From contig JAUMUE010000005.1 of NCBI GenBank assembly GCA_030530845.1, positions 1 through 59,552 of the forward strand: a stretch of 59,552 nucleotides of DNA. The letters run 5' to 3'. The notes below the pieces were generated by a model. That model ran no database searches and was not told where the DNA came from. It worked only from the letters and a program-made list of their open reading frames with translations. Positions 39,563 to 59,552 of the stretch are shown one piece after another (the first letter of the stretch is position 1; the number at the start of each line of letters is the position of its first letter). This DNA is from Limosilactobacillus sp. Lineage in GTDB: Bacteria; Bacillota; Bacilli; Lactobacillales; Lactobacillaceae. A program made the position numbers and the translations under genes.

Positions 39563-39660
39563 ATTGTGCACCTCCTTAATATCTAAGACTCGCCGAATCA
39601 AGCAGCAGTGCTTTGAACTTGATAGCGTGCGGTTGTAGTTGTTGGTTCACAAATACAACG
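39563..39660 (-). promoter_or_regulatory. candidate L21 leader
   Basis: A leader of about 95 bases lies between the rplU promoter and start codon and contains ATCAAG/CTTGAT arms around a 15-base region. Firmicutes rplU operons commonly carry an L21 autoregulatory leader in this place. Not matched to a consensus. Confidence 0.5.
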
Positions 39661-40578: not shown

Positions 40579-40652
40579 GAAGCGGTAGCTCAACTGGATA
40601 GAGCATCGGTCTTCTAAACCGAGGGTTGAGGGTTCAAGTCCCTCTCGCTTCA
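40579..40652 (+). tRNA. tRNA-Arg (anticodon UCU)
   Basis: A complete cloverleaf is visible. The acceptor GAAGCGG pairs with TCGCTTC, including one G-T pair. The anticodon arm TCGGT-CTTCTAA-ACCGA has anticodon TCT, and the T arm is GAGGG-TTCAAGT-CCCTC. The discriminator is A and no CCA is encoded. It reads AGA codons. It stands alone with its own promoter. A weak CCAG/CTGG hairpin with a T-rich tail downstream (about 40669-40710) may end it. Confidence 0.95.
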
Positions 40653-40860: not shown

Positions 40861-40977
40861 ATGTTACCATTAACTATTATTGTTGTGATTCTCTCTGGTG
40901 CATTTGCTGGTCAGTACTTTTTCGGTAACCAGTCAGAAGAGGCTGTTGGTAAACACAGCGCAGAAAGAAAAGCATAA
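40861..40977 (+). CDS. 38-residue single-pass membrane peptide
   Basis: The ATG is preceded by GAGGTGA. The product starts MLPLTIIVVILSGAFAGQYF, one hydrophobic segment long enough to span the membrane, followed by a short charged tail ending SAERKA. It has its own promoter and a strong terminator, which supports a real gene. No function can be named; it is unlike signal peptides of known bacteriocins and has no GG leader. Confidence 0.7.
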   Translation: MLPLTIIVVILSGAFAGQYFFGNQSEEAVGKHSAERKA

Positions 40978-41001: not shown

Positions 41002-41037
41002 AAAGAGACGAGCATGAAATTTCATGCTCGTCTCTTT
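41002..41037. terminator. bidirectional terminator, perfect 36-bp palindrome
   Basis: 18 bases (41002-41019) are the exact reverse complement of the next 18 (41020-41037), with T-rich tails on both strands. It closes the small ORF and the minus-strand three-gene cassette. Confidence 0.92.
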
Positions 41038-41571
41038 TTAGTTTGCGTATTGGTCGTTAGCTTGGTCGATCATTTCTATGTATGCTTCTTCTATGGATTG
41101 AGTGTCAAACCCAAAGTCGATCAAGCCCATCTTCAAGATCATGTGCCAAGCGTGACTGAAATTAGCTTGCAGCCGATTGGTATAAGCTGTATTCAAGAAA
41201 TTCTTGATTGCCAAGTATTCCCTGTTGAGGTCAGCTAATTGACCCTTCTTCTCGGAGCCAGTGATTCGCTCCCATTGTTCATCAGATAAGACAACCAGGT
41301 GCGTCCACTGTTTCTTTGCGCTGAACAGCAAGAATAGTGACAGGACACGAACATATACCTTCAGCAGTTGTTCTTTATCCAATTCGCGGTTGTGATGCAA
41401 CACGTCCATCCAGCCGGCAGTCTTAGCAAATTCTGCTAATTCTACGTCCAGGCGTGCAAAGATCCCTTGCCGACGTGCATCGGGTCCAATCATCAATTCC
41501 TGTGCGTCATCAATTGATAATTCCAGGTCGATCACAGAGTGCAATAACTTAGTAACATCAATTTTATTCAT
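41038..41571 (-). CDS. all-alpha protein resembling dimeric dUTPase / NTP pyrophosphatase, catalytic residues partly missing
   Basis: A 177-residue helical protein, last gene of an overlapping three-gene cassette. The start ATG at 41571 overlaps the previous stop by 8 bases. Residues near 54-66 (LDVELAEFAKTAGW) resemble the first ExxE motif of all-alpha NTP pyrophosphatases such as dimeric dUTPase. The later helix LLKVYVRVLSLFLLF lies where those enzymes have the ExxD motif, but the acidic residues are replaced by Val and Arg. If related, it has probably lost the usual metal site. The identification is tentative. Confidence 0.75.
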   Translation of the reverse strand: MNKIDVTKLLHSVIDLELSIDDAQELMIGPDARRQGIFARLDVELAEFAKTAGWMDVLHHNRELDKEQLLKVYVRVLSLFLLFSAKKQWTHLVVLSDEQWERITGSEKKGQLADLNREYLAIKNFLNTAYTNRLQANFSHAWHMILKMGLIDFGFDTQSIEEAYIEMIDQANDQYAN

Positions 41572-42577
41572 GAGCATCCTCTTCTTGGTGAGGCATGAAG
41601 ACCTCGGTTGGTTGTTCATATTCTTGTGGTGCATCTTCTTCGTCATCTTGGTCGTCACCCATAACCATCAGGCGGGATTGAACTTCGAGACTTTCGCGGT
41701 TGTCTAGGTACCACTGACTAATCAAGTGGTAGTGCAAGAGCAGGTCAAAGAAGGAAACACGATCACCGGGATCTTGAACTTGGAAGAACCAGCGTGTGGT
41801 GTAATCGCTAGGATCATAGAGCAGGTCCAAATTGATATCATTATCCAACACCAATTCGGCACCGTTGTTTTGTGGTAAGCTCATCAACATGTAATCAGTT
41901 TCGGCAGTCGCAATGAAGAGACGGTCGATAACGCTGGTGTCGAGTGATGAATTATCCAGGTAGAATTCTTCGTTACTGTCGGTGTTGAGAATTCCGAGGT
42001 TAACTAAGAATCCAAGGTCGGTTTGCAATGAATCCGCAAACGCAAGGAGTGTCTTCACAACATCTCGTAATTCAAGGTCGGTGTGCTTCTTGAGGGCACG
42101 AACGATGAAATAGTTGATGAATGCTTGGTTGTTGAACTGAAGGAAGCGGTTTTTCAAATCAAGGTAGAAGAGTGGTTCCTTCCCTTCTTGTTCGATAAAG
42201 GCAACTTCATTTTTCTTTACAACGAACTTGAAGCTGTTTTCAGCAGTGATTGGATCAATCCGTGCGATGAATTCATGGCTGGCAGTTTCACTAATTTGGA
42301 ATGATGTGACACCGCACTTTTCTAAGATTCGTCCCATAAAAATCAGGAAGTAATCTGCTGCCTTGTAATGATTTGGAAAGTTGATAAAGGCATTTTGCAG
42401 GTCAAGCTTAACTAATTCTTCAGTCGCAGAAAGCATATGTTGTGCGTCTTCTGCTTGTGCGAGTTGGTCGAGTAAATCAACGTAGGTTTGACCTGTGTGA
42501 AGAACTTCCTTGAATGAATCGGAAAGTGTCATCAAACGTTGGCTAGGTGTGCCGATCATGTTGTTATTGTTCATCAT
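41564..42577 (-). CDS. unknown protein, middle gene of three-gene cassette
   Basis: A 337-residue soluble protein that I do not recognise. It is rich in Asp, Asn and Leu. It has a helical first half, a patch of alternating β-like residues (FKFVVKKNEVAFIEQEGKEP), and a disordered acidic tail (GDDQDDEEDAPQEYEQP). No nuclease, ATPase or membrane motif is visible. ATG codons are in tandem at 42577 and 42574 with AGGTGA upstream inside the previous gene. It overlaps that gene by 14 bases and the next by 8, so the three products are probably made together. Confidence 0.85.
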   Translation of the reverse strand: MMNNNNMIGTPSQRLMTLSDSFKEVLHTGQTYVDLLDQLAQAEDAQHMLSATEELVKLDLQNAFINFPNHYKAADYFLIFMGRILEKCGVTSFQISETASHEFIARIDPITAENSFKFVVKKNEVAFIEQEGKEPLFYLDLKNRFLQFNNQAFINYFIVRALKKHTDLELRDVVKTLLAFADSLQTDLGFLVNLGILNTDSNEEFYLDNSSLDTSVIDRLFIATAETDYMLMSLPQNNGAELVLDNDINLDLLYDPSDYTTRWFFQVQDPGDRVSFFDLLLHYHLISQWYLDNRESLEVQSRLMVMGDDQDDEEDAPQEYEQPTEVFMPHQEEDAHE

Positions 42578-43457
42578 CGGTCACCTGCTTTTCTTCCTTA
42601 TCGGCTTCTTCGAGCATTGCCAAGTAGTTAGCGTATAAGTTACGGTTTGCTAATTCGAAGTCTTCAAAGCTACCGAACGCATCGATAATACTCTTTTGTT
42701 CGTAACTCAAAATGGTGTTTTCCTTAGAAAGAGCCAACAGAACTTGTTCGTTTTCCTTGATCGTCTTGTTTGCAGACCGAGCTTCATGATCTTGGTCTTC
42801 CAGCTTTTGAATTTGATCAAGCAATTCTTGGCGGGTTTCCTTATTACGGTTTGATTCGAAAATACCAGTCCGGCTGTTGCTTTCCTCGAGTTGGTCTTCG
42901 AGTTGTCTGCGCTTGCGATCACGTTGGTCTTGGGTATCGATCAACTCTTGCAAGTGGTCGTTTTGGTTAGAAACTTGTTCAATCCGATCACTGTTGTAGC
43001 GCTTGTTTTGGCGTGCTAATTCAAAGGACTTGCTGAGCTTTGCGTATTCTTCTTGGTTGAATGCGAAGCGGACGTTCAAAACATCCAATTCACCGAAGAC
43101 ACGACGATCCCACCAGTTACCGAAGTAGATCCGGTAGTGACCCATTTGGTATTCTTCATAGTAGAAAAATGGGTAGGTTTGACCGAGGTACTTAATCAAA
43201 TTTTCACTCAAGTAGTTGCTCAAGTGGTCAGCCATGTCGTCAACGAGACTCATTACCCCTTGGTCGTTAGGTTGTTGTTCACGGTGTTCGATTTCAGCAG
43301 CATAACGACGATTGTCCAAGAGTTGGTAAATCTTTCGGTCATGGTGACTCTCAACTGCTTGGTTCAATTCTTGCAGGTATTTAATTTTGGTTGACACTTG
43401 CCGTTGAATGAGACTACTCATGTCAACAGCTTGTTGTGCGTGTTCTACATTCGCCAT
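42564..43457 (-). CDS. unknown coiled-coil protein, first gene of three-gene cassette
   Basis: A 297-residue protein. The first 140 residues form a globular part with aromatic-rich LGQTYPFFYYEEYQMGHYRIYF-type segments in two blocks. Residues about 140-255 form a charged coiled coil (RKRRQLEDQLEESNSRTG, then LLDQIQKLEDQD). It resembles SbcC/Rad50-type coiled coils in composition only, with no Walker motifs. The ATG follows AAGGAG at normal spacing. It overlaps the next gene by 14 bases. Confidence 0.85.
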   Translation of the reverse strand: MANVEHAQQAVDMSSLIQRQVSTKIKYLQELNQAVESHHDRKIYQLLDNRRYAAEIEHREQQPNDQGVMSLVDDMADHLSNYLSENLIKYLGQTYPFFYYEEYQMGHYRIYFGNWWDRRVFGELDVLNVRFAFNQEEYAKLSKSFELARQNKRYNSDRIEQVSNQNDHLQELIDTQDQRDRKRRQLEDQLEESNSRTGIFESNRNKETRQELLDQIQKLEDQDHEARSANKTIKENEQVLLALSKENTILSYEQKSIIDAFGSFEDFELANRNLYANYLAMLEEADKEEKQVTDDEQ

Positions 43458-43698: not shown

Positions 43699-43824
43699 AT
43701 GGCACTTAGCAAACAAGAACGCAAGGAAATGGCTCGTAAGGCTATGGAAAAGCGTGGAAACAAGAAGCCTAATGGTTCAGGATTTGCCAAACTTGACTCA
43801 GAAGCCAAGAAACTGAGCGACTAA
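43699..43824 (+). CDS. 41-residue basic peptide
   Basis: The ATG follows AGAGGCGA. The product starts MALSKQERKEMARKAMEKRG, is strongly basic in its first 25 residues and soluble, and ends EAKKLSD. It has a good promoter and terminator, so it is very likely expressed. No known family recognised; a nucleic-acid-binding role is possible from charge alone. Confidence 0.7.
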   Translation: MALSKQERKEMARKAMEKRGNKKPNGSGFAKLDSEAKKLSD

Positions 43825-54069: not shown

Positions 54070-57000
54070 TTAGTCCTCGTCACGCTTCTTCATCTTCAAA
54101 CCAAGAAGTGATAATCCAACGAGAAGCAAGCCGGCTGCTTGTGCTTCTGATGAATCTGCTCGACCAGTTTGTGGAAGAGTCTTCTGAGTTGATTGAGTCC
54201 GAGTTGTGGTTTGGGCTGAGCCGTTAACCTTGTTTGTTGCCTTGCCTTCAGTAGCTTGGCCTTGACCTTGTCCTTGTCCTGCGCCTTGACCTTGACCTGC
54301 ACCTTCACCATTTTCGTGTGATTCAGGTGCTGGAGTTGCGTTCTTAGTGTAGTAGATGTCAACAATTTCGTTGTCACCTGCACTAGGAGTCTTAGCAGAA
54401 ATGTGAGCTGGATCCGCAGTGTAACCCTCTACTTCTGGAGCGTCAAATGCATCCCAGGTACCTTCTACTACTGCATCCCCGTATGTTGCGGTCTTAGTAA
54501 CGTTATCGAAGGAAAGCGTCTTAGTGAATGTCACGGTTTGAGTGATGGTGGTTACAGTACCGTCAACGTTGTGAACATTGATTGTCCGCGTTGCAGTTTG
54601 TTCGACATCATCATTAGTCAACTTACCGTGTCCGAAGTCGATGTAGATAGTTTGGTCGTTGTCACCGAATGTCGTTGGCAATTCAGGCATGTTAGTTACT
54701 TCATAACCCTTTTGCTTCATCTTTTCGGTAATTTGATCAACCACACCAGTCAAGTTGGTGTTAGAACCGGTCTTGCCAGTGATAGTAGTTACATCGATCA
54801 TGGAGTCACCGCCGTCATGGTCACGTGAAATGATCGTGATAGTAGATTCTCCAGCCTTCTTTTCGTGGTAAGTAATCGTGATGTTGACGTTTGGAGTATC
54901 CGCAGTGGTGGTTTGTGCTGGAACCTGCTTGATTGATGGAACGTATCCGTCAATTTCAGGAGCATCAAACGCATCCCAAGTTTGGCTACCCTTAGCCGTC
55001 CATTCGCCGTAGCTTGCAACAGAACCAGTAACTTCGTCGTAGTGAGCAGTACGTTCGTAAGTTACTACTTGTCTAGTCACTGCAGAAGTACCATCAGGCT
55101 TTACAACCGTGATCGTTCTGATTGCCATGTGGGTCAATTCTGTGTCATCAACACCGGATGGCTTGTTAGGGTCATCGTGGTGAACATCAATTACAGCGTG
55201 CTTGAAGTGTACGTAAGCGTATTGGTCGACGGAAGAATCACTGTCGAAGTTAGCTGGAACGTCATCGGTCACGTATTCGTACTTGCTGAACTTGTTCTTA
55301 AGTCCAGATACGATTGCGTCCTTGTCGATTGCAGCGCCGTTTGCACCAGTGATGTCTTCGCTGTCCATTACCTTGCCGTTTGCATCATCATCAACTGCGA
55401 TCACGTGAAGCACTTGATCAGTAGTTGGAGTTGATGGTGTATCAACCTTGGTGTAGGTGATTTCAACGGTTTGGCTACCGCCGTTTACAGTAGGCTTTAC
55501 AGATGGAACAACCGTGATGTTTGGCTTGTATCCATCGAAGTGTGGAGCCTTGAATTCACTCCAAGTGTCATCACCCTTAGGAGTCCAATCAGTGTAAGTA
55601 ATCTTACCAGTCGTCTTATCAAGCGTGAAGTCACGTGTGAACGTTACGTTTTGCTTGGTGGTTTCAGTAGTTCCATCAGGCTTAGTAACTGTAATGGTAC
55701 GAGTTACCGTAGTTGAAAGGTCGCCTTGTGGGTCAATGCTGATGTTCTTGTGGTTGAATCTCAAAGTAATTGTTTGATCTTCGCCAGTGAACTTAGTTGG
55801 AAGTTCATCAGCACCTACAAATTGGTAACCAGCACTAGTCAAAGCAGCCTTGATTGCTTCCATAGCAGATGCAATGTCACCCTTGGTCTTAGTAAAGTCA
55901 TCAGTTTCGTGGCCAGTGAAGGCAGAAGTGATGTCACTAGGAAGAGTGATGACTGCGTTGCCCTTGTCAGTGTCCACAGCTACAACATGGATTGTGCTTT
56001 GGAGGTTACGTTCAAAGATTACATCCACTTCTACATTAGCAGTGTCGTGGTGAACAGTTTGTGCTTCAACAACCGTCTTAGTTGTATCACCGTCAATGGA
56101 CTTGAGCTTGTAGTTTTCACGAGTTGGCGTGAATTCTTGCCAAGTACCAGAGTCAGTGTTTGCGTAAGTTGCGAGAACCATGAACGTTGCTGGAGTTGCA
56201 GGGGTCTTGGTATCCAAGTTTTCCCATGCGCCAGAAAGTGATTCGATAACCTTACCAGTAACAATGTCGTACGCAATTTGACGACCGAACCGGACAGTTT
56301 GTACAGCCATTACACGGTGGTTGTTAGGATCAGTTACATCCACGATCGTCCGAGTTACTTCACGGTAGAAGTCATCCTTAGTTACGTTAGTTGCGTCACC
56401 AGGGAGTTCTTGACCTGGAGTAATCGTGCCGTGCTTGTGTCCAAGAACAATAGTGTAACTGTTCTTAGTAGCGTCTTGGCTAAGAGTAATCGTGTCGTTT
56501 TCGATTGGGTTGCTCTTAACGGTGTAACCCTTCTTGAGCAATGCAGCAACCTGACTACCAGCAACATTTGTCACAGTAGAATCAGTTTGACCAGTTACAG
56601 TGAAGCGATCAAGTACAGTTGGGTTGCCTGATGCATCAAGTTCATCACCGTCCACGATTGTAATCGTAGCGGTTTCCATGAGTGGTACGTAAGTTACGTT
56701 GACAGTAGTGTTTGGCGTGTCTTGGGTAATTGTAGTAACAGCTGGAACAGTTGTACCTTCCTTACCGTCGATCATCGTCTTGTAACCAGACTTGCCAGTT
56801 GGAGTGTATTCACCCCATCCACCATCAGTAAGCTTCCATGGAGTTGCGCTAGTAATTTCACCAGTTACCTTGTCGTAAGTTACAGTACGTTCGAACTTAG
56901 CGCTTTGGGTAATTGGCGTGTTAGGGTTTGCAGAATCGTTAATTGTCCGGGTTACAGTCCGTTCAATATCGTTTTCTGTAAACTTAGCGCCGCCTGGGAT

Positions 57001-59552
57001 CTTACCACCTGGTTGAACTGAGTCTTGTCCGTGGCCCAACTTGATGATGTAAACATTCTTGTCAGCGTCTGCATTCAAGGTAATTTCGTCATCGTTAATT
57101 GGGTTTTCAACGAGCTTGTAACCTTGGTCGATGTATTCCTTGATCTTGTCATTTGCAACACCGGTCTTAGTTTCATCAGTCTTACCAGAGATAGTGTAGC
57201 TAGTAAGTGTTACTGGGTTATCTGGATCGTCAACGTCAACAATCTTGATCGTAGCCACTTGGTCGTTAGCTGTGTAGTTGATAGTTACAGTCTTGTCAGT
57301 AGTATCAGCAGTTGGTGTTTCAGCTGCGACACTAGTTTGACTAGCAGTGTAACCAGGAACCGTTGGAACGTCAGTGTATGCTGGCCATGATGTTTCACTA
57401 CCTGCCTTAACCGTCCAGTCACCGTAAGTTACCTTGTTAGTTACTTGATCAATCGTTGCGGTACGTTCGAAGCTTACTTCTTGCGTCGTAGTCTTCGTAG
57501 TGCCGTCTGGGTTGTTAACGATAATCTTACGAGTTACCGTCTTGTTCAAGTCAGCTTCGTCAACACCAGTTGGGTAGTGACCTTCACCTTGTCCACCAGG
57601 AAGTGGGTAGGTTTCGCTTGGCTTCTTAGGGTTATCTGGAGTTACATTTACTGTTCCGTGAGTGAAGTGGATTGTGTATGTTTGATCCGCATCGTCATCG
57701 GAGTCAAATGTAATTTCAGTTGGAATATCTGATTCAGGAGTTACGAGTGTGTAACCTTGCTTTTGGTATCCAGCAACCTTTTCAGCAGCACCAGTTTGAA
57801 CTGTCTTATCACTGTCGCCAGTAAATGGATCAGTTTCCAAATCAGTATTAGTGACGTCATCGTGGTAAGTGATCGTAGCCTTTTGCTTGTGAGCAGTGTA
57901 CGTGATGTTAATTACTGAATCTTGCGTATCAGCAGTTGGAGTAACTGCATCTACACCGTCTTGAGTAGCAGTGAATCCAGGAAGGACTGGAGTTGTGAAC
58001 TTGTCCCACTTACTATCACTGCCGTCAGCTACAGTCCAGTCAGTGTATGTAACCTTGTTGCCTACTTGGTCAATCTTAGCATCGCGAACGAAGCTTACCT
58101 TTTGTGTTGTCGTAGTGGTCTTACCACTTGGATCAGTCACATTGATTGTCCGAGTGACAATCTTGTTCAAGCTTGCTTCGTCAACACCTTCTGGATAGTT
58201 CTTATCAGTCTTGCCGTCTGGTTGCTTGTAAGTTTCACCAGTTGTCTTAGGATCATCGTGTTTTACAGTGATCGAACTGTGAGTGAAGTACAACTTAACG
58301 GTTTGACCACCAGCCACAAACTTAACTGGTAATTCATCACTATCATCAGCGTCAAATACATAACCCTTAGCGGCTAATGCATCCTTGATTGCTTGAGCAG
58401 TACTGTCCAAGTCAGCGGTCGCATCAGTCTTGCCTGTGACAGAAGTAGTCAAGCCAGTTAAGTCAATTAGCTTGTTGTTATCACTCTTGTCGTAGGCTTC
58501 GATCTTAATAGTTTGATCTTGGGCTGTGTAGTTGATGTCAACATTCTTGTCATTGGTATCAGCAGTTGGTGTTTCTGCTCCGACGCTCGTTTGACTAGCA
58601 GTGTAGCCAGAAACCGCTGGAACGTCACTAAATGCTGGCCATGATGATTCACTACCTGCCTTAACCGTCCAGTCACCGTAAGTTACCTTATTAGTTACTT
58701 GGTCGATCGTAGCAGTGCGTTGGAAGCTGACCTTTTGAGTAGTCGTCTTCGTACCGCTGTGTGGATCATTGACATTGATTGTCCGCGTTACCGTCTTGTT
58801 CAAGTCAGCTTCGTCCACACCATCTGGATAAGTTCCTTCTCCCTTTCCACCAGGAAGTGGGTAAGTTTCACCCTTCTTCTTAGGGTTATCAGGAGTTACG
58901 TTCACTGTTCCGTGAGCGAAGTGGATTGTGTAAGTTTGATCCGCATCGTCATCGGTATCAAATGTAATTTCAGATGGAACTTGTTCTTCTGGAGTTACGA
59001 GTGTGTAACCTTGCTTTTGGTATCCAGCGATCTTATCTGCGGCACCCGTTTCAACAGTGGTTGCACTATCACCAGTAAATGGATCTGCTGACAATTCCTT
59101 CTTGTCGGTATCGTCGTAGTAAACAACCTTAGCCTTTTGCTTGTGAGCAGTGTAAGTGATGTTAATTACAGAATCACGAGTATCTGCAGTTGGTGTTTCA
59201 GATGCAACACTATCTTGACTAGCTGTGTAACCAGGAAGTTCTGGAGTGGTGAATTCATCCCAGACACTCTTGCTACCATCAGCCAAAGTCCAGTCACTGT
59301 ATGTAACATTGTTGGTTACTTGGTCAATCGTGGCATCACGAACGAAGCTTACTTCTTGCTTAGTCGTTGTGGTCTTACCACTTGGATCAGTCACATTGAT
59401 TGTCCGAGTGACAGTCTTGTTCAAGTCAGTTTGGTCAACGCCTGATGGGTAGTTTTGTTCAGTTTCGCCATCTGGTTGCTTGTAAGTTTCACCAGTCGTC
59501 TTAGGTTGATCTGGCGTTACCGTCATCGTCTTGTGAGTGAAGTAAAGCTTGA
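54070..59552 (-). CDS. LPXTG-anchored Mub-repeat surface adhesin, N-terminal part beyond window
   Basis: A large cell-wall protein; 1826 codons of its C-terminal part are visible, and the frame is open at the right edge (no start in window, the Met at 59526 is internal). It is built of tandem repeats of about 175-225 residues, each with an MucBP/Mub-like first half (KGYxLV...IHFxHGT) and a Mub B2-like second half (VTRTINV...FxRTATIDQVTNKVTYGDWT). Eight full repeats and part of another are visible. A Gly/Gln-rich linker follows, then LPQTG at 1784-1788 (numbered from the internal Met), a hydrophobic segment and KMKKRDED, the sortase signal. Mucus binding is inferred from family. Confidence 0.93.
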   Translation of the reverse strand, partial: KLYFTHKTMTVTPDQPKTTGETYKQPDGETEQNYPSGVDQTDLNKTVTRTINVTDPSGKTTTTKQEVSFVRDATIDQVTNNVTYSDWTLADGSKSVWDEFTTPELPGYTASQDSVASETPTADTRDSVINITYTAHKQKAKVVYYDDTDKKELSADPFTGDSATTVETGAADKIAGYQKQGYTLVTPEEQVPSEITFDTDDDADQTYTIHFAHGTVNVTPDNPKKKGETYPLPGGKGEGTYPDGVDEADLNKTVTRTINVNDPHSGTKTTTQKVSFQRTATIDQVTNKVTYGDWTVKAGSESSWPAFSDVPAVSGYTASQTSVGAETPTADTNDKNVDINYTAQDQTIKIEAYDKSDNNKLIDLTGLTTSVTGKTDATADLDSTAQAIKDALAAKGYVFDADDSDELPVKFVAGGQTVKLYFTHSSITVKHDDPKTTGETYKQPDGKTDKNYPEGVDEASLNKIVTRTINVTDPSGKTTTTTQKVSFVRDAKIDQVGNKVTYTDWTVADGSDSKWDKFTTPVLPGFTATQDGVDAVTPTADTQDSVINITYTAHKQKATITYHDDVTNTDLETDPFTGDSDKTVQTGAAEKVAGYQKQGYTLVTPESDIPTEITFDSDDDADQTYTIHFTHGTVNVTPDNPKKPSETYPLPGGQGEGHYPTGVDEADLNKTVTRKIIVNNPDGTTKTTTQEVSFERTATIDQVTNKVTYGDWTVKAGSETSWPAYTDVPTVPGYTASQTSVAAETPTADTTDKTVTINYTANDQVATIKIVDVDDPDNPVTLTSYTISGKTDETKTGVANDKIKEYIDQGYKLVENPINDDEITLNADADKNVYIIKLGHGQDSVQPGGKIPGGAKFTENDIERTVTRTINDSANPNTPITQSAKFERTVTYDKVTGEITSATPWKLTDGGWGEYTPTGKSGYKTMIDGKEGTTVPAVTTITQDTPNTTVNVTYVPLMETATITIVDGDELDASGNPTVLDRFTVTGQTDSTVTNVAGSQVAALLKKGYTVKSNPIENDTITLSQDATKNSYTIVLGHKHGTITPGQELPGDATNVTKDDFYREVTRTIVDVTDPNNHRVMAVQTVRFGRQIAYDIVTGKVIESLSGAWENLDTKTPATPATFMVLATYANTDSGTWQEFTPTRENYKLKSIDGDTTKTVVEAQTVHHDTANVEVDVIFERNLQSTIHVVAVDTDKGNAVITLPSDITSAFTGHETDDFTKTKGDIASAMEAIKAALTSAGYQFVGADELPTKFTGEDQTITLRFNHKNISIDPQGDLSTTVTRTITVTKPDGTTETTKQNVTFTRDFTLDKTTGKITYTDWTPKGDDTWSEFKAPHFDGYKPNITVVPSVKPTVNGGSQTVEITYTKVDTPSTPTTDQVLHVIAVDDDANGKVMDSEDITGANGAAIDKDAIVSGLKNKFSKYEYVTDDVPANFDSDSSVDQYAYVHFKHAVIDVHHDDPNKPSGVDDTELTHMAIRTITVVKPDGTSAVTRQVVTYERTAHYDEVTGSVASYGEWTAKGSQTWDAFDAPEIDGYVPSIKQVPAQTTTADTPNVNITITYHEKKAGESTITIISRDHDGGDSMIDVTTITGKTGSNTNLTGVVDQITEKMKQKGYEVTNMPELPTTFGDNDQTIYIDFGHGKLTNDDVEQTATRTINVHNVDGTVTTITQTVTFTKTLSFDNVTKTATYGDAVVEGTWDAFDAPEVEGYTADPAHISAKTPSAGDNEIVDIYYTKNATPAPESHENGEGAGQGQGAGQGQGQGQATEGKATNKVNGSAQTTTRTQSTQKTLPQTGRADSSEAQAAGLLLVGLSLLGLKMKKRDED
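54325..59552 (-). repeat. array of Mub-type repeats
   Basis: Repeat boundaries on the minus strand: R0 (partial) 59552-59137, R1 59136-58513, R2 58512-57883, R3 57882-57259, R4 57258-56674, R5 56673-55999, R6 55998-55414, R7 55413-54847, R8 54846-54325. R1 and R3 are near-identical, as are the visible part of R0 and R2. R6-R8 are diverged. R5 is longest, with an insert after SGAWE. Confidence 0.88.

Follow-up and report, generated by a model that had tools for sequence, protein, structure and literature searches.

A conserved gene pair of Lactobacillaceae and its variable third gene, a dimeric-dUTPase relative that is probably no longer an enzyme in Limosilactobacillus

The window analysed here is a stretch of 59,552 nucleotides from Limosilactobacillus sp. 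(contig JAUMUE010000005.1, assembly GCA_030530845.1), in which three overlapping genes, hereafter gene 1, gene 2 and gene 3, had been picked out from the letters alone as a cassette of unknown function. The coordinates of this original prediction are confirmed, that is, genes of 297, 337 and 177 amino acids (aa) which overlap by 14 and 8 bases. The genes, their overlaps and the parts of the gene 1 protein are as follows:

43457-42564, minus strand: gene 1, ATG start, 297 aa.
42577-41564, minus strand: gene 2, ATG start, 337 aa.
41571-41038, minus strand: gene 3, ATG start, 177 aa.
42564..42577, minus strand: 14-base overlap of genes 1 and 2, with a Shine-Dalgarno-like AGGTGA just before it, within gene 1.
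41564..41571, minus strand: 8-base overlap of genes 2 and 3, with a Shine-Dalgarno-like AAGAGGA upstream, within gene 2.
Gene 1, residues ~15-135: N-terminal conserved domain, YPFFYYEEY..G..RIYFGNWWDRR.FG.LDVLNVRF.
Gene 1, residues ~140-240: central coiled coil, charged and of heptad character.
Gene 1, residues ~240-285: C-terminal conserved segment, LSKENTILSYEQKSI.

The mechanical list of open reading frames (ORFs) gives gene 3 a longer form with a GTG start at 41658; the ATG at 41571 is the start common to its relatives.

The three genes lie in the same order and on the same strand in all 30 loci from the genus and in all 80 named Lactobacillaceae loci. The named loci are the best 80 of 161 places, belong mostly to Limosi-, Pauci-, Levi-, Lactiplanti-, Secundi- and Liquorilactobacillus according to the record titles, and share many genomes with the genus set; gene 2 is split in one of them (L075). 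With the single window sequence as query, gene 2 was found in 32 of the 33 genomes of the genus and in none of 23 genomes from the order's other families. The genes are real, conserved and restricted to a lineage, as had been supposed. The only genus genome with no gene 2 match (G029) is 94% complete and 5% contaminated, and its gltX stands in a different neighbourhood. The same trio is found downstream of glnA in L. fermentum, where it is annotated as 'exonuclease SbcC', 'hypothetical protein' and 'dUTPase'. The overlap of genes 1 and 2 is kept in 87 of 94 Lactobacillaceae loci when the most upstream start is used, while that of genes 2 and 3 is not conserved between genera (24/90 loci), gaps of 0-15 bases being common.

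Beyond these loci, it is the pair of genes 1 and 2 that reaches furthest. A gene 1 profile matched 268 of 397 Lactobacillaceae genomes, from 24 of the 40 genera sampled. Another 20 loci, taken from other Lactobacillaceae genera, all have gene 1 next to gene 2 (gene 1 being split in L177); gene 3 was detected in ten of these loci and none was detected in the other ten. A deeper gene 2 profile (A9) covers all 20, 12 as its own members and 8 non-members at 8.7e-41 or better. Among 246 Lactobacillales genomes, a deeper gene 2 profile matched 44, and 26 of these belong to a second family, f3 (8 genera). We call this family Enterococcaceae-like on account of a match, at 48% identity, between one of its gene 1 sequences and an E. 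faecium plasmid record. In that record (p114-2; L246 6959-8942) genes 1 and 2 appear as two overlapping 'hypothetical proteins' among chromosomal-looking genes. Gene 1 stands immediately before gene 2, with no gene 3 detected, in 15 of 15 loci of the Enterococcaceae-like family, and the two genes overlap in 13 of the 15. Four of its loci (L217 6801-7505, L219, L228 and L230) carry a methyltransferase of the Methyltransf_25/11 type behind gene 2, and this enzyme might play the part of a third partner in those loci.

Searches across the class (398 genomes) gave seven weak gene 2 matches outside the two families (E value 7e-4 to 9e-3), which we treat as chance, since a per-genome limit of 0.01 would by itself let through about four such hits. 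Six of the seven are ORFs of 385-419 aa, aligned only over about the last 55 profile positions; they look like members of one methyltransferase family. No credible gene 2 match was found in sixteen Lactobacillaceae genera searched. An apparent absence of gene 2 from genera g28, g27, g34 and g50 was rejected, as the ORFs in its place align to gene 2 over 74 C-terminal columns (probability 93%, E 3e-7). Genes 1 and 2 were thus never apart in the loci examined. Since they occur without a detected gene 3 in the Enterococcaceae-like family and in some Lactobacillaceae loci, the pair is the wider unit and the older core, and the trio is its extension in Lactobacillaceae. Hence, the expectation that the three genes form one unit holds for gene order wherever the trio occurs in Lactobacillaceae, but not for its boundaries: gene 3 can be separated from its neighbours, whereas genes 1 and 2 were not found separately.

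The first protein had been described as a coiled coil, and this is borne out by a heptad signal in its middle (residues 141-196 of the window protein) and by weak profile matches to the coils of MafG, Rad50, GCN4 and Spc25 (E 0.002 to 0.1, profile positions ~115-265), obtained with an alignment that is mostly Enterococcaceae-like. Such matches, SMC among them, together with the 'exonuclease SbcC' label that the gene bears in L. fermentum, the only lactobacillus whose annotation was seen, would suit an SMC/Rad50/SbcC-type complex for chromosome structure or repair. However, the SMC and Rad50 matches are confined to the coil, and the 297 residues hold no G-x4-GK[ST] (Walker A) motif and have no ATPase match in Pfam or NCBIfam, so that the label is not earned. 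Moreover, in genus g46 (L173 7339-8040) gene 1 encodes 234 aa, with both conserved ends present and most of the coil gone, and the coil may therefore be a spacer rather than the heart of the protein. All three proteins are acidic, and the isoelectric points of the first two (4.9 for gene 1 and a very low 4.3 for gene 2) argue mildly against DNA binding. We consider a complex of this kind very unlikely. SbcC is mentioned in PMC8924699 and PMC7391244; this may be the true SbcC and is not used as evidence.

Gene 2 is best conserved in its C-terminal third (VIDRLFIATAE..YMLM....GAELVLD....SFFDLLLHY...WYL), and its acidic tail (after ~310) is variable within the genus and missing in most of the other genera aligned. 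No Pfam, NCBIfam, PADLOC or PHROGs model matched genes 1 and 2 above cut-off or noise when the window proteins and distant members, Enterococcaceae-like ones included, were scanned; the sub-threshold family matches of distant gene 1 members lie mostly in the coil. The original prediction that none of the three proteins carries a nameable motif therefore stands for genes 1 and 2, but not for gene 3, which is of dUTPase_2 descent. Profile comparison found genes 1 and 2 unrelated to each other. In two of the three control sets no other pair of genes has a partial correlation of distances as high as that of genes 1 and 2 (0.78, 20 loci; 0.87, 12 loci); in the third set the two rank fourth (0.66, 16 loci), and thus rate covariation backs the pair only weakly. 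An open frame of 562 aa that looked like a fusion of the two genes was rejected, being a gene 2 of 300 aa beside a separate gene 1. Because genes 1 and 2 are never apart in the loci examined, their overlap is conserved and their distances covary best in two of the three control sets, we infer that their products form a core complex.

Gene 3 had been said to resemble nucleoside triphosphate (NTP) pyrophosphatases distantly, and its orthologues make this relationship firm. The window protein itself has no match to PF08761 (dUTPase_2) above the curated cut-off or below it, but 14 of the 31 members of its family alignment match this model at E up to 0.1 (best 4.6e-22), and the matches are nearly full-length in L. 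plantarum (5.9e-21), Levilactobacillus (1.2e-19), an L. mucosae-like copy (1.2e-19) and L181 (range 1e-19 to 6e-21). When eight gene 3 copies were rescanned, L086 was below the cut-off, and L201 and L011 had no dUTPase_2 match. A profile of 12 intact copies finds the dUTPase of S. aureus phage DI (5myd) at E 3.4e-6 with the ExxE and ExxD pairs aligned; when the gene 3 profile A6 was used against PDB, a lone match at chance level came up, and one intact sequence on its own yielded no relevant match. By orthology, the window's gene 3 is a descendant of the dUTPase_2 family, not a typical member of it.

The dimeric dUTPase family is all-alpha, and the Mg ligands of the C. jejuni enzyme (Glu46, Glu49, Glu74 and Asp77) correspond to a tetrad in gene 3 (PMC2954211). 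In the window's gene 3 the ExxE pair is kept (E44, E47), while V72 and R75 stand in place of the ExxD pair. The protein also lacks the C-terminal motif K..N..RQ...Y, which presumably binds the nucleotide. Among 121 aligned rows (the window protein and 120 loci, duplicates included) the full tetrad is intact in 41 and incomplete in 80; with duplicates removed it is intact in 39 of 94 unique loci. One or both Glu of ExxE are lost in every other degenerate row except L001, the window's own duplicate. The C-terminal K, N, R, Q and Y are all kept in 39 of the 41 tetrad-intact rows, the other two having E for K, and the full motif occurs in none of the 80 rows in which the tetrad is incomplete. Gene 3 is apparently intact in Levi-, Lactiplanti- and Paucilactobacillus loci and in the L. 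mucosae group (L022, L023, L073, L105), the only Limosilactobacillus loci seen with an intact tetrad; in the rest of the Limosilactobacillus loci seen, as in those of Secundi- and Liquorilactobacillus, it is degenerate. As judged from these residues, gene 3 has probably ceased to be an enzyme in Limosilactobacillus.

These data bear on the possibility that the trio is a nucleotide house-cleaning operon, in which gene 3 is, or recently was, an active dUTPase or NTP pyrophosphatase, genes 1 and 2 help to clean or monitor the pool, and the activity in Limosilactobacillus relies on other residues or another substrate. The 39 of 94 unique loci with an intact tetrad and C-terminal motif and the near full-length family matches of the orthologues would fit this, and a 'Dimeric dUTPase', which may or may not be gene 3, is listed among differentially expressed L. 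plantarum proteins (PMC5654829). Against it, no tetrad-less row keeps the full C-terminal motif, many loci have genes 1 and 2 with no gene 3 detected, and a trimeric-family dUTPase (PF00692) is encoded in 45 of 45 genomes, whatever the state of gene 3; the cell's need for dUTPase is therefore probably met elsewhere, with gene 3 intact or not. PF08761 was found above cut-off in 17 of the 45 genomes, each time right behind gene 2, that is, in the gene 3 position, and one further match, weak and below cut-off, lies elsewhere in a genome of the Enterococcaceae-like family. We regard house-cleaning as unlikely, although it retains some weight.

Mapped on a tree of genes 1 and 2, the tetrad state requires at least six changes, or two if only the well-supported branches are trusted; this tree has several very long branches and only a midpoint root. 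Rates of nonsynonymous relative to synonymous substitution (dN/dS) were estimated for gene 3 in 23 pairs of related loci, of which 17 were computable and six saturated; the values are rough, as the pairs are non-independent and some mechanically early ORF starts include bases shared with gene 2. In the degenerate copies dN/dS was 0.028-0.161 in 13 of 14 measurable pairs, compared with 0-0.012 in three intact pairs, and in the same degenerate pairs it was about 0.01-0.04 for gene 1 and 0.03-0.12 for gene 2, where measurable. Since a neutral relic would sit near 1, the degenerate gene 3 is kept by purifying selection.

Several observations nevertheless weigh against a complex of genes 1 and 2 that has gene 3 as a non-catalytic subunit. 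It is the fastest of the trio, with a mean distance of 0.91 as against 0.39 and 0.70 for genes 1 and 2 in 42 Limosilactobacillus loci, and its distances track those of genes 1 and 2 no better than those of unrelated neighbours. In L. oris (L003/L104) it is truncated, having only 130 aa and a changed end, and the remaining measurable pair, this truncated copy against L062, has a dN/dS of 0.354; gene 3 is therefore not indispensable and is possibly decaying in that species. The degenerate Secundilactobacillus copy (L117) still lies above the PF08761 cut-off (4.7e-7). No natural fusion of any two of the genes was seen, with no gene 1 frame longer than 353 aa and no gene 2 frame longer than 377 in the rows inspected, and four profiles built from genes 1 and 2 returned only coiled coils or noise when run against PDB sequences, that is, no known fold outside the coil. 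The rate, the truncation and the lack of a detectable gene 3 in half of the further Lactobacillaceae loci would be expected if gene 3 were a hitch-hiker, a once useful dUTPase carried along by its operon position and now decaying, with only genes 1 and 2 of importance. The purifying selection in the degenerate lineages speaks against this, as does the length of at least 167 aa kept in 29 of the 30 genus loci, and we think a mere passenger distinctly improbable.

Around the trio, the region had been described as otherwise housekeeping, which agrees with the names that we could give to its neighbours by reading their sequences; gltX and glnA lie upstream. The two tiny flanking ORFs had been credited with strong promoters and terminators. 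The ORFs themselves are conserved and one terminator-like hairpin is present, but promoter-like sites are not enriched (13, compared with a mean of 10.4 and a standard deviation of 3.0 in shuffled sequences). These and other features of the window are:

41002-41037, plus strand: terminator-like hairpin of 16 pairs, just beyond the gene 3 stop.
40861-40977, plus strand: ORF of 38 aa with one hydrophobic, probably membrane, segment.
43699-43824, plus strand: basic ORF of 41 aa, with no name here, between gene 1 and gltX.
39576-39644, minus strand: ribosomal protein L21 leader RNA (Rfam RF00559), before rplU.
40579-40652, plus strand: tRNA gene.
54070-59526, minus strand: repetitive ORF of 1818 aa ending in LPQTG and a hydrophobic tail, read from its sequence as probably a cell-wall-anchored surface protein.

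The T-run of the hairpin is on the plus-strand side, and thus it probably terminates mainly the 38-aa ORF. The 41-aa ORF is a real small gene, matched in 38 of 116 loci at 63-98% identity, a far genus (L171) included, and the 38-aa ORF is matched in 25 of 116 at 41-71%. The glnA gene lies directly upstream, on the same strand and within 1.5 kilobases, in 49 of 115 loci, which makes a link to nitrogen possible; it was found in 0 of the 15 Enterococcaceae-like loci, and in some loci the upstream sequence is too short to judge. The position next to glnA, together with a tree of genes 1 and 2 that mostly follows the named genera, argues against a defence, toxin-antitoxin or mobile-element module. 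This explanation could draw on 31 phage records with matches, each below 60% identity, to the intact gene 3 of L. plantarum, and on the one E. faecium plasmid record that carries the pair. However, gene 1 has no match among 50,697 phage records, no PADLOC or PHROGs match was better than E 0.05 (best PADLOC E 0.52, over 40 residues of gene 1), and we consider such a module extremely unlikely.

Taken together, the trio may consist of a two-protein core and a recruited dUTPase-fold subunit that is now non-catalytic, a reading which in our judgement could fall either way. The products of genes 1 and 2 would be the two subunits of a core complex, soluble, acidic and of old origin, in Lactobacillaceae and the Enterococcaceae-like family, with gene 1 as the coiled-coil scaffold and gene 2 translated from its overlapping start, and hence made together with gene 1. 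A gene for a dimeric dUTPase, an all-alpha NTP pyrophosphatase, would have been added as the third gene in part of Lactobacillaceae. Where the tetrad is intact, gene 3 could hydrolyse dUTP-like nucleotides. Because the tetrad and the C-terminal motif are lost and the protein is yet kept by selection, the degenerate gene 3 is most likely a non-catalytic subunit that binds genes 1 and 2. Possibly, it would dock through its dimer or nucleotide face and, where dead, sense a nucleotide or simply hold the complex together. Such a role would have a precedent in phage dUTPases whose regulatory activity does not depend on catalysis (PMC12524310). The original prediction of a conserved complex in nucleotide biology is thus supported in part, as regards the conserved unit and the family of gene 3; the physical complex, the sensing and any tie to DNA or nucleotide metabolism are inferred. 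A bolder version, which we put forward as rather improbable, is that genes 1 and 2 form an unrecognised core complex of Lactobacillaceae and Enterococcaceae acting on nucleotide supply or DNA replication, and that gene 3 serves this complex as its arm for sensing nucleotides. In that case a dimeric dUTPase would have become a non-catalytic sensor or scaffold independently in several lineages, the gene keeping its place.

What emerges beyond the original prediction is an unnamed gene pair common to two bacterial families and an in-place shift from an enzyme to an apparent pseudoenzyme. The pair adds two protein families that no Pfam or NCBIfam model fits, gene 1 being present in 24 of the 40 Lactobacillaceae genera sampled and gene 2 in at least 8 genera of the second family. 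Our literature search, which did not reach most subscription papers, found no paper recognisably about the trio. Gene 3 amounts to a natural experiment: without any change of place, it is an apparently intact dUTPase in some lineages and a conserved dead copy in others. A comparison of the two states would reveal which tasks the dUTPase fold can perform other than catalysis, and this question has been raised in print for dUTPases generally (PMC12524310).

Three known systems invite comparison. With SbcC, Rad50 and SMC proteins gene 1 shares a public annotation and a coiled coil, but it is far smaller and lacks their ATPase signature, and its coil of about 100 residues is far shorter and, in one genus, mostly gone. 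With the dimeric dUTPases (5myd; C. jejuni 1w2y) the gene 3 orthologues share a match over about the full length, the ExxE...ExxD residues and the C-terminal K..N..RQ...Y, whereas the window's copy goes undetected by PF08761, has neither ExxD nor the C-terminal motif, and is the third gene behind two unrelated conserved genes. A parallel to our model is offered by staphylococcal phage dUTPases, which regulate staphylococcal pathogenicity islands (SaPI) through the Stl repressor (PMC12524310; PMC5608427). Those dUTPases are phage-borne, whereas gene 3 is chromosomal and has no repressor partner known here; the likeness would lie in a dUTPase fold given a regulatory job that does not need catalysis.

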